64,000 bases of DNA, taken from an uncultured archaeon (GTDB taxonomy: Archaea; Halobacteriota; Methanosarcinia; Methanosarcinales; Methanoperedenaceae). The notes below the pieces were generated by a model. That model did not search any database, was not told where the DNA came from, and was given only the letters and a program-made list of their open reading frames with translations. The DNA lies in NCBI GenBank assembly GCA_902386205.1, contig CABMIH010000057.1, forward strand, positions 124,001-188,000, in the 5' to 3' direction. A program made the position numbers and the translations under genes. Positions 14,903-21,068 of this stretch are shown here, in pieces; the stretch's first letter is position 1, and each line of letters starts with the position of its first letter.

Positions 14903-16998
14903 ACTTTCTCTGGTTGTGAATCCAGCAACCCAAGCATTTTTCCAGGATCAGTAGTAGGGGGTTTGCAACTGTAATCCCGGCATACATAAGCCGTGGCTTT
15001 TCCTTCTTTGCCTGTAAAATCCCTGGCATATTCGGCAAAAGCGAGTATTTCCGGAGACTCAATTTCAGTGGGACGGAGAATAACTACTTTTTCAGGTATG
15101 AACTTTTTTCTCAGGGCTTCCAGCATAGCCTTTGTATCCGGCGCCTGTGAATCCCCTGCTATAACCACTTCGCAGGAAGGTCCAGATGCAAAGTCAAGCG
15201 CCACCATCATCTGGGTATAAGACACCGGCGATTGCAGGATGGAGTTGGAAAAGGCCCGCCCGACCTGTACAGCCTTATTTTCAAGTTCCTGGTTGTTCGT
15301 TATCCTGCCAAGGCGAAGAAGGTTCAGCATTGCCACGGAATTGCCTGAAGGAACAGCGCCATCATAGATCTCTTTCTTCCTGAAAAGGAGGCTCTCTGCA
15401 TCGTCAGAAGTGAAGTAAAAACCACTGCTATCTTTGTCCCGGAAATGCTCAAGAAGCCTGTTGTTCAGGTCAAGCGACGTCCGCAGATAAGTCACATCAA
15501 ACGTAGTTTCATAGAGTTCTATTAATCCCCATATAAGGAAAGCATAATCGTCCAAAAAAGCGGGCACTGCAATATCGCCGTGCCTGTAACGGTGATACAG
15601 CCTCATGTTGCCATCCTGCATCTTTGAAAGTATAAAACCCGCAGCACGCTTCGCAGCTTCCAGATATCCCGGTTCATCAAAGACCTGTGCGCCTTTTGCC
15701 AGCGCAGCTATCATCAAACCGTTCCAGTCAACTATGATCTTATCATCTTTACCCGGATGAATGCGCTTTTCACGGGCCGCGAACAGTCTCTGCCGTGCGT
15801 CTTCCAGTTTTGCCTTAATCTCATCTTCCGGCATTTTAAGGCCGGATGAGAGCTCATGGATTGTCTTTGTCATGTACAGGATATTTTTCCCTGTGGTTTT
15901 TCCCGTTTCCCTGAAATTGCCATTCTCACCAACATTGAATATCTTCTCTATCAAACGGTTCTCCTCACCAAGCACAGACCGTATCTCTTCAGAAGTCCAG
16001 ATATAGAACTTCCCCTCCGCGCCTTCGCTATCTGCATCCTCCCCTGAGTAAAACCCCCCTTCAGGCGAGGTCATATCACGCAGCACATAAGTAAATATCT
16101 CGCGTGCTGTTTGCCCGTATTCTTCTTCCCCGGTAGCCTGGAAAGCCTCAGTATAAGCCATTGCAAGCAATGCCTGGTCATAGAGCATCTTTTCAAAATG
16201 CGGCACAAGCCATCCTGCATCCGTGGAATACCTGTGAAAACCAAAACCTACATGGTCATAAATCCCTCCCATACGCATGCCTGAAAGCGTCCTTTCCACC
16301 ATGCGTAACGCCATAATATCCCCTGTGCGCCTGAAATAACGAAGAAGGAAGGTGAGATTATGGGGTGTGGGGAACTTGGGAGCGTCGCTAAAACCCCCAT
16401 GCTGCTCATCAAACATCGCCAGAAGCTGTTCATAAGCCATATTAAGAACATCCTTATCCGGTTCTTTTTCAGAGGGTTTTTGCGCTTCCCTGATCGAAGA
16501 AACCACCTTTGCAGCAAGGTTCTGTGCCCCGCCCCTGTTTTTATTCCAGAGGTCTTTGATCTTTGGTATCATCTCAAGCATGCCTGTCCTTCCGGACTTG
16601 CTTTCTTTCGGAACGTAAGTCATGGCGAGAAAAGGTTTTTTATCGGGGGTCAGAATAATGTTAAGCGGCCATCCGCCGCTACCGGTCATCACCTGGCAGA
16701 CCTTCATATATATACTGTCAATATCGGGCCGCTCTTCCCTGTCAACCTTTATGCTTACAAAAACATCGTTCATCAACCCTGCCACATCATCATCCTCAAA
16801 AGACTCTTTCTCCATAACATGGCACCAGTGGCAGGTGGAGTACCCGATTGACAGGAAAACCGGCTTATTTTCATTTTTTGCCTTCTCAAAAGCCTCCTCT
16901 CCCCAGGGATACCAGTCCACGGGATTATGGGCGTGCTGGAGCAGGTATGGGCTTTTTTCAGATGCCAATCTGTTGGGTTTCCGGGCCTTTTCGGTCAT
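14893..16998 (-). CDS. Thioredoxin-domain protein, DUF255/YyaL (SPATA20-like)
   Basis: 701 aa. The N-terminal DUF255 thioredoxin fold has the active-site-like [18 protein letters not shown] (about 52-69); [13 protein letters not shown] follows near 111. The remainder is an (alpha/alpha)6 barrel of the AGE/glycosidase-like type ([13 protein letters not shown] near 267, [13 protein letters not shown] near 318). Large proteins of this family occur in bacteria, archaea and eukaryotes, and their function is not settled. Length is full. Single gene, convergent with rps6e; the DUF2179 gene lies 16 bp upstream on the same strand. Confidence 0.9.
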
Positions 16999-17611: not shown

Positions 17612-17661
17612 ATATGCGTTGGAACAATCTTTTATGTATTAAAACGTTATCTTGGTTTGAT

Positions 17662-18642
17662 ATGAAAATGAACGCGAAGATAAAAGCCGAACTTATCTCC
17701 ATCGGGGCGATAGATATCGACCCCTCCCTGCTCGGAAGGCTCACCATTCCCACAGCCGGGCCCGGGGCTGGGGGGAAGGCTTTTTTCTTTAAATCAGGAA
17801 AGCACAGGGTCAGGCTTGTTGTTGATGAAGGTTCACCGCTGCGTGCTGTCAGGGATAACGGGGAAATCGTGATTTTAAAAGGCGGCAGGGAGCTTGTGAG
17901 GGGGACAATCGAAGAGGAACTCATACACTGCCCTGAGCAGGCGTATATCACAATGAGTGAGCGTTGCATTTACGATTGTAAGTTCTGCCCTGTGCCGAAA
18001 CTGAAAGGCAAGGTCAAATCCTCCGGGGAGTTGATGGCGCTTGTTGAAGAAGCTTACCGCCTCGGTAATATGAAAGGCATTTCGATAACATCCGGGGTCG
18101 AAGTGTCGCCTGAGAAAGAGGTGGAAAGAGCAGTAGATCTCGTCAGGGCGCTTCGGAAATATAATGTCCCCATTGGCGTCTCTGTCTATCCCACGAAAGA
18201 TTCCTCGCGACTTTTAAAAGAGGCAGGGGCAAGCGAAATAAAATACAATGTGGAAACCATGGACAGGGATATTTATGACAAATACTGTAAAAAACCTCCT
18301 CTTGATTTCACACTTCTATGCCTGGAAGACGCGGTAAGGATTTTCGGCAAGAACCATGTATTTACCAATTTCATAGTAGGGCTTGGTGAAACCGATGAGA
18401 CCGTTGAACAATATTATGAAGAGCTTGCAAAGATGGGCGTCATCCCTATAATAAGAGCCGTGGGCGTCCATCCCCTGCGGTTCGGGGAACTGGAAGCCGA
18501 ACGCCCCACAAAGGAGAGGCTGCTTAAGCTTGCGAAAATGGCGCGGAGGATTTTAGATAAATACGGGCTTGATGCAAGCGTGGCAAAGACCATGTGCCTT
18601 CCATGCACCGGATGCGACCTGAACCCGCATATCGACCTTTAG
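17662..18642 (+). CDS. Radical SAM protein with C-terminal Cys cluster
   Basis: 326 aa from ATG 17662. The radical-SAM cluster motif is CIYDCKFC (C102, C106, C109). TIM-barrel markers are ISITSGVEVSPEKE near 142 and VETMDRDIYDKY near 195. It ends in CLPCTGC, which could bind an auxiliary Fe-S cluster. The overall layout resembles the BioB/lipoyl synthase branch, but the N-terminal 90 residues are not typical of either and the product is unknown. It is followed within 10 bp by a JAMM peptidase gene. Starting at 17614 would add 16 residues with no ribosome site. Confidence 0.75.
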   Translation: MKMNAKIKAELISIGAIDIDPSLLGRLTIPTAGPGAGGKAFFFKSGKHRVRLVVDEGSPLRAVRDNGEIVILKGGRELVRGTIEEELIHCPEQAYITMSERCIYDCKFCPVPKLKGKVKSSGELMALVEEAYRLGNMKGISITSGVEVSPEKEVERAVDLVRALRKYNVPIGVSVYPTKDSSRLLKEAGASEIKYNVETMDRDIYDKYCKKPPLDFTLLCLEDAVRIFGKNHVFTNFIVGLGETDETVEQYYEELAKMGVIPIIRAVGVHPLRFGELEAERPTKERLLKLAKMARRILDKYGLDASVAKTMCLPCTGCDLNPHIDL

Positions 18643-18652
18643 ACATTGCAAT

Positions 18653-19051
18653 ATGATCAACGAACTCAAAATCTCGGGCCAGGACATGGCACTGATACAG
18701 TCAGAACTTGAAACAAACAAACCATATGAAGCCTGCGGGGTACTTATAGGGACTGTAAAAGGAAGCACGGCATACGTTGAAAAAGCCCTGCCGGTGGCCA
18801 ATGTGAAACGCACAAGAAGAAGCTTTGAACTTGACCCGAAGGAATTCTATGAGGCATGGGACGGCGCAGAGAAAGACGGGAAAGAGATAGTGGGAATTTA
18901 TCATACACATCCTGTAACATCTGCCTTTCCCTCGCTGTGGGACAGGGAAACCATGGAAAATGATACTTCGGTGTGGCTTATAGCGGGCGCTGACGGGATG
19001 AGAGCTTATGTGTGGGAAGGTGGGATTAGACCTGTGATACTGAAAGATTGA
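18653..19051 (+). CDS. JAMM/MPN metallopeptidase (Mov34 family)
   Basis: 132 aa single-domain protease. All zinc and catalytic residues are visible: E26 in YEACGVLIG, then HTHP with H84 and H86, S94 and D97 in the stretch ending SLWDRE. Single-domain archaeal JAMM proteins include enzymes that remove ubiquitin-like SAMP modifiers, so desampylation is a reasonable guess. It is co-directional with the radical SAM gene, 10 bp after it. Confidence 0.85.
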   Translation: MINELKISGQDMALIQSELETNKPYEACGVLIGTVKGSTAYVEKALPVANVKRTRRSFELDPKEFYEAWDGAEKDGKEIVGIYHTHPVTSAFPSLWDRETMENDTSVWLIAGADGMRAYVWEGGIRPVILKD

Positions 19052-19167: not shown

Positions 19168-19455
19168 ATGGACATCCGGCTATCCCGTCCATGCATCGAA
19201 GACCCGACAAGGTATATAGCTGAATGCCATATCGGGAGGAAAGTGAGCATGGAGAAACTGTGCGACATTCTGCGAAATATCAACGCAAAAGAGTTAAAAT
19301 GTTCAATAAATCTCGGTGTCGCACGATTTGAACTGGAAGGAAGGAGCGTGATGATATACCAGAGCGGACGCGTGGATATCAGAAGGATACGAACCGCAGA
19401 TGAAGCCAGCGATATGATGGATCGAATAATCCGATTGATAGAGGATGCACTTTAG
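19168..19455 (+). CDS. 95-aa protein resembling one lobe of TBP
   Basis: Starts at ATG 19168; the in-frame extension to 19048 is Cys-rich and non-conserved in appearance. The sequence YIAECHIGRKVSMEKLCDIL followed by VARFELEGRSVMIYQSGRVD and TADEASDMMDRIIRLI lines up with a single repeat of archaeal TATA-binding protein: IG-D/N-x-LE..., RL-x-x-PKVALLIF-SGKV, then the SxEEAxxAxxKI helix. TBP has two such repeats; this has one. It ends 4 bp inside the convergent coiled-coil gene. The homology is my inference by eye, with low sequence identity. Confidence 0.6.
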   Translation: MDIRLSRPCIEDPTRYIAECHIGRKVSMEKLCDILRNINAKELKCSINLGVARFELEGRSVMIYQSGRVDIRRIRTADEASDMMDRIIRLIEDAL

Positions 19456-19769
19456 CGGTATATCCTCTTAGAGAATTCACCTATCGAATTACTGGTACTC
19501 TGTGCCATTGCATCCATCTTTTTCTCAAGATTCTCCTCGACGCCTTTGATGTTGATCCTGAGGGAGCGCTCTTTTGCATTAAGTGCTTCTTCAAGGTTAC
19601 TTAATCTTGTATCAAGTAACAATATCATAACAGCAAGAGAACCGACAAGGATCATAGCAGATATGACAATAACGGGGTCAGAATCTCCAAGCCTGGTGAG
19701 CCATTTATAGGTCAACACCAGTGAAGATACTATCATTACAACAGCGAGACTGATATATTTTGCATCCAT
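19452..19769 (-). CDS. Small membrane protein with coiled coil
   Basis: 105 aa. Two membrane helices (about 5-22 and 32-51) are followed by a heptad-rich tail (LDTRLSNLEEALNAKERSL onward) that should form a coiled coil in the cytoplasm. A strong Shine-Dalgarno (GAGGTGG) precedes the ATG. Family unknown. It is convergent with the TBP-lobe-like gene, sharing 4 bp, and divergent from the gene at 19880. Confidence 0.65.
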   Translation of the reverse strand: MDAKYISLAVVMIVSSLVLTYKWLTRLGDSDPVIVISAMILVGSLAVMILLLDTRLSNLEEALNAKERSLRINIKGVEENLEKKMDAMAQSTSNSIGEFSKRIYR

Positions 19770-19879
19770 TCATCCACCTCTGAAGTTTGTTAACAATTAT
19801 ACCTGTGAATATAAATAGATTTAGATTTTTGCCTGATGCAGGGGAAATATTATTAGATACGTTTGCAAATATACCGCTG

Positions 19880-20218
19880 ATGTCAAGAAAGTTGAGTCCT
19901 GAGGATATGTCGATCCTGAGAAAGCTTGTACCTGAACTGGTTGACCCGACATGCAAACACGCAGGGCACGAGTTCAGGTCCGTGCTTCCGCCTGTGAGCC
20001 AGCATTTTTCCCGGACCTTCGAGGATTTCGGGCAGCGCCTTCTTAAGCTCTCGGATGAGGAACTGGATTATCTTTTGCAGCTTATATTCGATGGTATGGA
20101 AAGCCTTCACTGCGTCAGGAAAGAACATGTGGACGCGCTTGTTGAAGTAGTGGGAAAGCGCATATCAAAAATAAAAGCCGCGCAATTGCTTGAACTTTAC
20201 AAGTATGTTGGAGATTAA
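19880..20218 (+). CDS. Conserved hypothetical protein upstream of methanogenesis marker 8
   Basis: 112 aa from ATG 19880; the ORF can be opened to 19787, but MSRKLSPEDMSILRKLVPEL looks like the natural start. Soluble and helical, with two notable pairs: C-K-H-A-G-H (about 24-29) and LHCVRKEHVD (about 76-85), so metal binding is possible. It ends 1 bp before the methanogenesis-marker-8 gene, so the two form an operon and may act together. Confidence 0.6.
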   Translation: MSRKLSPEDMSILRKLVPELVDPTCKHAGHEFRSVLPPVSQHFSRTFEDFGQRLLKLSDEELDYLLQLIFDGMESLHCVRKEHVDALVEVVGKRISKIKAAQLLELYKYVGD

Positions 20219-20219
20219 A

Positions 20220-21068
20220 ATGCCCCATGTAATGGAACTGTTCGGAAAAACGCGTGTCGTGGTAAAAGACGGAAAAGTAGTTGAGGTAGGTGAGCCGGTC
20301 GCCGATTGGTGCCCTGTGTTCAGCAAGGTTGCGGATGTTCAAAAACTCACTTCTCTGGAGGCAAAAAAGAATATGGAATACAGGATCCGCGAGCTCGGGA
20401 TGTTCACGCCGCAGAGAAGGTTCGACCATGGCGTTTTTGTTAACTTTGGCGTAAGTGAAATAATGATGACCGCCCTTCGGCGCGGCCTCATAGATTCCAC
20501 AGTAACTGTATGTGACGGCGCAGGCACCGTGATCACAAGCGACCCGGGACTTGTGCAGGGTATGGGCGCTTTAATGTCGGGGCTTATCGAGACCGAGCCG
20601 ATACGCGAGATAATCGAAGGGATTGAATCGCGTGGAGGTATTGTGCTTGATAAGGAAAGCGCAAGTATTGACCAGACCCGTGGTCTCCTGAAAGCCTGCG
20701 AACTCGGATATAAGAATATCGCGGTCAGCGTGGTAGCCCATCACGAAGCAAGAAGACTTCGCGCCATCGGGAAAGAGCATGACGTCAGTTTGATCCTGGT
20801 CGGGGCGCATCTCACAGGAATACGGTGCGATGAAGCACGCGAATTCATTGGTGAGCTGGACATAGTGACAGGATGCGCCTCAAGAACTGTGCGCGATATG
20901 GTAAATCCGGTTCTTCAAGCGGGCGTTTCGGTGCCAATGTTTGCAATTACGCAGAAGGGAAAGGAACTCCTTCTTGAGAGGGCAAAAGAAGTGGATTCGC
21001 CACTTCTAATAAATACGACGAAATTGCCTGTGCTGCCAAGGCATAAGCAGCCAAGACCCCTCGGATAA
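20220..21068 (+). CDS. Methanogenesis marker protein 8 (DUF2099)
   Basis: 282 aa from ATG 20220. MPHVMELFGKTRVVVKDGKV, then GEPVADWCP and RFDHGVFVNFGVSEIMM, mark the DUF2099 family, which is confined to methanogens and relatives and is counted among the methanogenesis markers; its reaction is not known. Rossmann-like stretches (AGTVITSDPGLVQGMGALM; NIAVSVVAHHEARRL) suggest a nucleotide or cofactor site. It follows a conserved hypothetical gene by 1 bp and is convergent with glnK. Confidence 0.88.
   Translation: MPHVMELFGKTRVVVKDGKVVEVGEPVADWCPVFSKVADVQKLTSLEAKKNMEYRIRELGMFTPQRRFDHGVFVNFGVSEIMMTALRRGLIDSTVTVCDGAGTVITSDPGLVQGMGALMSGLIETEPIREIIEGIESRGGIVLDKESASIDQTRGLLKACELGYKNIAVSVVAHHEARRLRAIGKEHDVSLILVGAHLTGIRCDEAREFIGELDIVTGCASRTVRDMVNPVLQAGVSVPMFAITQKGKELLLERAKEVDSPLLINTTKLPVLPRHKQPRPLG

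Follow-up and report, generated by a model that had tools for sequence, protein, structure and literature searches.

The window analysed here is a 64,000-nucleotide stretch of a Methanoperedenaceae genome, in which an ORF on the forward strand at positions 19168 to 19455 encodes a protein that begins with MDIRLSRPC and ends with EDAL and a stop codon. Upstream of it lie genes for a radical SAM protein and a metalloprotease, while a small membrane protein encoded on the opposite strand, an ORF without a family assignment and methanogenesis marker 8 follow (Table 1). The membrane protein has two helices and a coiled-coil tail, and bears no significant Pfam name. Marker 8 probably starts at an ATG near 20220 (MPHVMELFGK, as at locus L084) rather than at the TTG at 20190. 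No Rfam match was found between positions 15000 and 24000.

Table 1. Genes and key codons at and around the lobe gene (positions within the window)
Feature	Positions	Strand	Basis or remark
Gene for a 95-aa protein, predicted single TBP-like lobe (Pro-Cys lobes, family A)	19168–19455	+	ORF, homologues, fold, profile
Pro8-Cys9 codons, invariant dyad	19189–19194	+	Cys in all 136 distinct sequences that have a residue at this position
Cys32 codon, first helix	19261–19263	+	75/78 in family A
Cys45 codon, stirrup region	19300–19302	+	78/78 in family A
Tyr64 codon, aligned with TBP aromatic L5.1	19357–19359	+	Tyr in 76/78 in family A
Convergent gene for a 105-aa membrane protein	19452–19769	-	ORF; its stop overlaps the stop of the lobe gene
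Radical SAM gene	17614–18642
JAMM/desampylase-like metalloprotease gene	18653–19051	+	immediately after the radical SAM gene
143-aa ORF just before marker 8	19787–20218	+	no convincing Pfam or NCBIfam match
Methanogenesis marker 8	20190–21068	+

The ORF at 19168 to 19455 is a real gene, and the coordinates given for its 95 codons in a preliminary description of this DNA are correct. Homologues with the same Met start are present in 42 of 60 related genomes and at 53 loci in those GTDB species genomes whose records are named; the hosts of these loci are Methanoperedens, ANME-2, ANME-3-type Methanosarcinaceae, Methanosalsum, Methanohalobium and bog or fen MAGs. The closest named relative is Candidatus Methanoperedens sp. 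MnB_21 (94% identity in the lobe protein). Selection on the coding sequence is purifying (dN/dS with a median of 0.11 and a maximum of 0.21; 82 scorable pairs out of 120 from 16 Methanoperedens genomes), and the opposite strand across the gene is interrupted by stops. Eleven columns are invariant across 23 family sequences, among which identity falls as low as 30%. The hosts of this family, referred to here as family A, were without exception Methanosarcinales-type methanogens, ANME archaea or their close relatives.

The preliminary description took the protein for one repeat of the TATA-binding protein (TBP), a proposal now backed by both sequence profile and predicted fold. All of the motifs on which it relied were found (an IG turn, an ME helix, FELxxxxVMIYxSGRV and a DEA...I helix). 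The sole Pfam match of the protein is TBP (PF00352; E 0.013), which at 15.7 bits falls below the gathering score of 22.9 bits, and the profile of the 23 family sequences matched both lobes of Methanocaldococcus jannaschii TBP at E 5e-9 in an hmmsearch. The AF2 model (pLDDT 93.9, pTM 0.83) has secondary-structure elements in the order E-E-H-E-E-E-E-H, that is, the strand-helix-four strands-helix lobe of the TBP-like superfamily with an additional N-terminal strand (residues 3–8) ahead of strand S1. In a Foldseek comparison against the PDB, ranks 1 to 43 were held exclusively by TBP (probability 1.00, TM(query) 0.59–0.69; best E-value 2e-3, none <1e-3), a DNA glycosylase appeared only at rank 47 and RNase H3 was not among the best 50 matches. 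Pairwise hhalign comparisons of family A with TBP lobes, made with shallow alignments, were weak (probability 11%–29%), hence the kinship with TBP rests on the fold and the hmmsearch result. Matches to RecA in the PDB search were set aside, as their scores were sums over an engineered repeat, of which four to six copies each matched weakly (single-copy i-E ~50–80). Given the AF2 element order, the TBP-only Foldseek ranks and the match of the family profile, the window protein is, according to the model, a free-standing single TBP-like lobe to which one strand has been added at the N-terminus.

The likeness to TBP (M. jannaschii TBP, 2z8u) comprises the fold order, the whole-lobe profile match and an aromatic-x-S-G turn. 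However, TBP consists of two tandem lobes, whereas the 95 residues here accommodate one, which has the extra strand, scores below the Pfam cut-off, bears a Pro-Cys dyad and three cysteines and lacks the FPG stirrup. The residues with which TBP contacts the TATA box are largely gone: the Asn of S1, the FPG stirrup and the Thr of S5 are missing, and of the two aromatics that intercalate, one is left, with the Phe of L5.1 replaced by Tyr64 (a correspondence established by sequence alignment, not by coordinates). An aromatic residue at L5.1 is retained as Tyr, Phe or His in nearly all members of the wider family described below. The SG[RK] turn is also retained in family A, and the net charge of family A proteins is near neutral (median +1).

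Relatives of the lobe were gathered by a phylum-wide search and then linked to family A by profile-profile comparison. They fall into five architectures, namely free A, free B, wHTH-lobe-FeS, lobe-FeS and PUA-PAPS-reductase-lobe-2[4Fe-4S], the last being PRK13795 (NCBIfam NF010366–NF010369) of methanogens. Family A matched B at 4e-14, the lobe of wHTH-lobe-FeS at 7e-11, that of lobe-FeS at 3e-10 and that of PRK13795 at 9e-8. We define the Pro-Cys lobe family by a Pro-Cys dyad that follows the first strand together with profile similarity, both of which are found in the window protein. Free B proteins are ~98 aa long. The wHTH-lobe-FeS proteins (~265 aa) join an ArsR-type wHTH to the lobe and an FeS domain (PF04060), which is also present in the lobe-FeS proteins (~180 aa; at the lobe-FeS loci of family f9, the proteins look hyperthermophilic). 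A separate model of wHTH-lobe-FeS (pLDDT 76), for which the best PDB matches were TBP in the middle and the ArsR-family redox/metal regulators HlyU and CadC at the front, supports the presence of a lobe within the fusion; the window protein itself has no wHTH. In PRK13795, the homologous lobe follows the PAPS-reductase domain, precedes two [4Fe-4S] motifs and has the same RPC motif, and a family A member from a bog lineage matches the PRK13795 model at 6e-7. PRK13795 differs from the window protein in being an enzyme-like protein of 630 aa that has the lobe as one of several domains. Four lobes are encoded in the genome of the window: the window protein itself (contig C57), a B copy (C51) and two PRK13795 lobes (C61 and C25). 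In a tree of the lobes, which is based on few columns and is to be read with long-branch effects in mind, B, wHTH-lobe-FeS, lobe-FeS and PRK13795 each formed one clade and family A was coherent save for the member encoded in the isc operon, which sits on a long branch between A and the group of B and the FeS fusions.

What unites the five architectures is the cysteine of the dyad (Table 1), which is also present in 74 of 74 seed sequences. We know of no Pro-Cys motif in the N-domain of RNase H3. The other two cysteines of the window protein are not common to B, the FeS fusions and the PRK13795 lobes (the position of Cys45 is a Tyr in B and in the FeS fusions, and both Cys32 and Cys45 are absent from PRK13795). 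A site composed of all three cysteines would therefore be peculiar to family A.

Genes encoding these relatives are found beside genes for Fe-S assembly, sulfur transfer and arsenic handling. In a genus of Methanosarcinaceae (g15), iscS and iscU are followed in the same direction by a diverged free lobe and then by an FmdE gene in 11 of 11 genomes, where the lobe is ~30% identical to the window protein and branches outside family A. IscU at these loci bears an added FeS_assembly_P domain. Genes for wHTH-lobe-FeS adjoin dsrE-dsrF-dsrH at five loci in three genera, with TauE at two of the five and ACR3 at two, making their products candidate sulfur- or redox-sensing regulators. Some wHTH-lobe-FeS genes occur as tandem pairs. 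ACR3, ArsP or ArsR was encoded within 4 kb of B at six out of seven Methanoperedens loci examined, and ArsP near lobe-FeS at two out of four loci. Around TBP and PRK13795 genes, used as controls (60 loci of ~3 kb each, hence with smaller flanks), the same sulfur, Fe-S and arsenic queries gave no match; flanks at the loci compared were unequal, ranging from 1.5 to 6 kb. Many of the neighbourhoods were counted in closely related genomes of a single genus, and hence the counts do not represent independent events.

Family A does not have such a setting. Across its 65 loci, IscS was found once, ACR3 twice, ArsR once, and IscU and DsrE at none, so that sulfur-gene neighbours as a feature of the family (at most 2 of 65 loci) were rejected. 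The preliminary description drew attention to marker 8 and the radical SAM gene; both are indeed present in the window, but their proximity to the lobe is not conserved, as marker 8 recurs at 12 of the 65 other loci (all of them Methanoperedens) and the radical SAM gene, like the JAMM gene, at none, and these three genes were accordingly discarded as partners. The one conserved neighbour of family A is the convergent membrane-protein gene (54/65 loci). It occurs irrespective of the lobe, in 136 of the 197 genomes covered from the phylum and also in families that lack family A, and is thus regarded as a mark of orthology rather than a functional partner.

Because its cysteine is invariant and its relatives are fused to or encoded beside Fe-S, sulfur-transfer and arsenic proteins, a role in handling sulfur, metals or redox signals is more probable for the window protein than the marking of promoters in the manner of TBP. 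The evidence on this side consists of Cys9 in all five architectures, with Cys32 and Cys45 added in family A; the fusions to PF04060 and, in PRK13795, to a PAPS reductase and two [4Fe-4S] motifs; and the iscS-iscU-lobe, dsrEFH and ACR3/ArsP/ArsR loci. The lobe may be a module working with thiols and thiophilic ligands, in which Cys9, Cys32 and Cys45 could bind or sense persulfide sulfur, an Fe-S cluster or a soft metal or metalloid, and the window protein would be a small accessory carrier or sensor in sulfur or Fe-S metabolism. Ligand binding, the carrier or sensor role and the extension of its relatives' theme to family A are what we infer from these comparisons. Against them stand the position of family A away from sulfur and Fe-S genes, the divergence of the isc-operon member, the restriction of Cys32 and Cys45 to family A and the conserved L5.1 aromatic, which would suit nucleic-acid binding equally well. 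Since family A has no such neighbours, a sulfur, Fe-S or metalloid role of the window protein rests on homology and on its three cysteines. On balance, we give an even chance to this Pro-Cys lobe (PC-lobe), a member of a cysteine-marked family, acting as an accessory carrier or sensor of a thiophilic ligand. More tentatively, and with some doubt, we suggest that in methanogens and ANME archaea a TBP lobe was turned into a cysteine-based sulfur, Fe-S or metalloid module unconnected with promoter recognition, which might be used as a free sulfur or cluster carrier, in wHTH regulators that would sense redox state or sulfur and control dsrEFH and arsenic genes, and as part of a sulfur enzyme resembling PAPS reductase.

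The strongest alternative, although one we consider rather unlikely, is that the lobe binds nucleic acid. TBP lobes are regarded as binders of double-stranded nucleic acids, with the L5.1 aromatic as a universal contact that extends to RNase H3, the N-domain of which is likewise a single TBP-like lobe with an L5.1 aromatic, albeit as part of a nuclease (PMC7221094). The window protein might similarly hold dsDNA, dsRNA or a hybrid through its concave sheet and Tyr64, and in the fusions the lobe might offer a second nucleic-acid contact to a DNA regulator or to a PUA-containing, RNA-acting PAPS-reductase-like enzyme. The retention of the L5.1 aromatic in nearly all members, the SG[RK] turn of family A and the nucleic-acid-binding nature of the wHTH and PUA partner domains are consistent with this. 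However, the Asn of S1, the FPG stirrup and the Thr of S5 are lost and the charge of family A is close to neutral; moreover, nucleic-acid binding has no need for an invariant cysteine and leaves the isc and arsenic neighbours unexplained. A sulfur- or redox-gated nucleic-acid contact could combine this reading with the sulfur one.

It is less probable still that the lobe is an adaptor that does no more than bind another protein (an Fe-S, redox or transcription partner), with a Pro-Cys dyad that is structural or serves docking. A small domain that moves between architectures as a fused module or a free subunit would fit such a role, but the invariance of Pro-Cys across five architectures exceeds the needs of a generic adaptor, and family A has no conserved neighbour that suggests a partner. 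The preliminary description suggested a homodimeric TBP-like factor or a relic of the ancestral unit. TBP lobes join edge to edge via S1, and the strand predicted for residues 3–8, if hairpinned to S1, would occupy that joining edge, which would disfavour a saddle of two subunits. Although the fold is that of a TBP lobe and lobes pair within TBP itself, we consider it very improbable that the protein dimerises into an alternative promoter factor, in view of the additional strand modelled beside S1, the absence of the FPG stirrup and of the second intercalating Phe and the sulfur, Fe-S and arsenic partners of its relatives, or that it descends from TBP before duplication, as its range is narrow, it has a Pro-Cys motif of its own and it coexists with ordinary TBP in related genomes. 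Most of the related genomes encode one or more canonical two-lobe TBPs. None was found in the assembly from which the window comes (95% complete), which is probably an assembly gap.

Free single-lobe TBPs reportedly occur in archaea, as Brindefalk and colleagues are said to have noted in 2013. Compared by description, these proteins and the window protein are both free lobes, and the account consulted gives no sequences, function or cysteine or sulfur context. The existence of single-lobe TBP proteins in archaea is thus not new. Targeted searches for literature on lobe fusions and on single lobes returned nothing, and no description tying single lobes to Fe-S, sulfur or arsenic was found in the literature searched, which did not include Brindefalk et al. 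2013. Hence, the TBP fold is known, but a cysteine-marked family of such lobes with a sulfur, Fe-S and arsenic context appears to be undescribed in the searchable literature. Methanosarcina has iscSU clusters, one of which includes four genes of unknown function, and Fe-S assembly in methanogens has been called largely unknown (PMC7585200). If the sulfur reading is true, a single-lobe family with an invariant cysteine, tied to Fe-S assembly, sulfur relay, the export of arsenite and an enzyme resembling PAPS reductase, would broaden the roles of this ancient fold and provide a way into the study of how methanogens traffic sulfur and Fe-S. The wHTH-lobe-FeS proteins encoded beside dsrEFH are good candidates for regulators that respond to sulfur or redox state in the genetically tractable Methanosarcina.

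Two further observations concern the distribution of the lobe. PRK13795 matches in a further set of families of the phylum, haloarchaea-like ones, stop before both the lobe and the [4Fe-4S] part, whereas methanogen PRK13795 proteins have both, as if the two had been gained or lost together. At a locus with Fen1, a membrane protein and a presenilin-like protein, genera g7 and g13 have a free A gene, but one genome of genus g17 has a wHTH-lobe-FeS gene there, as if one lobe gene had replaced the other.
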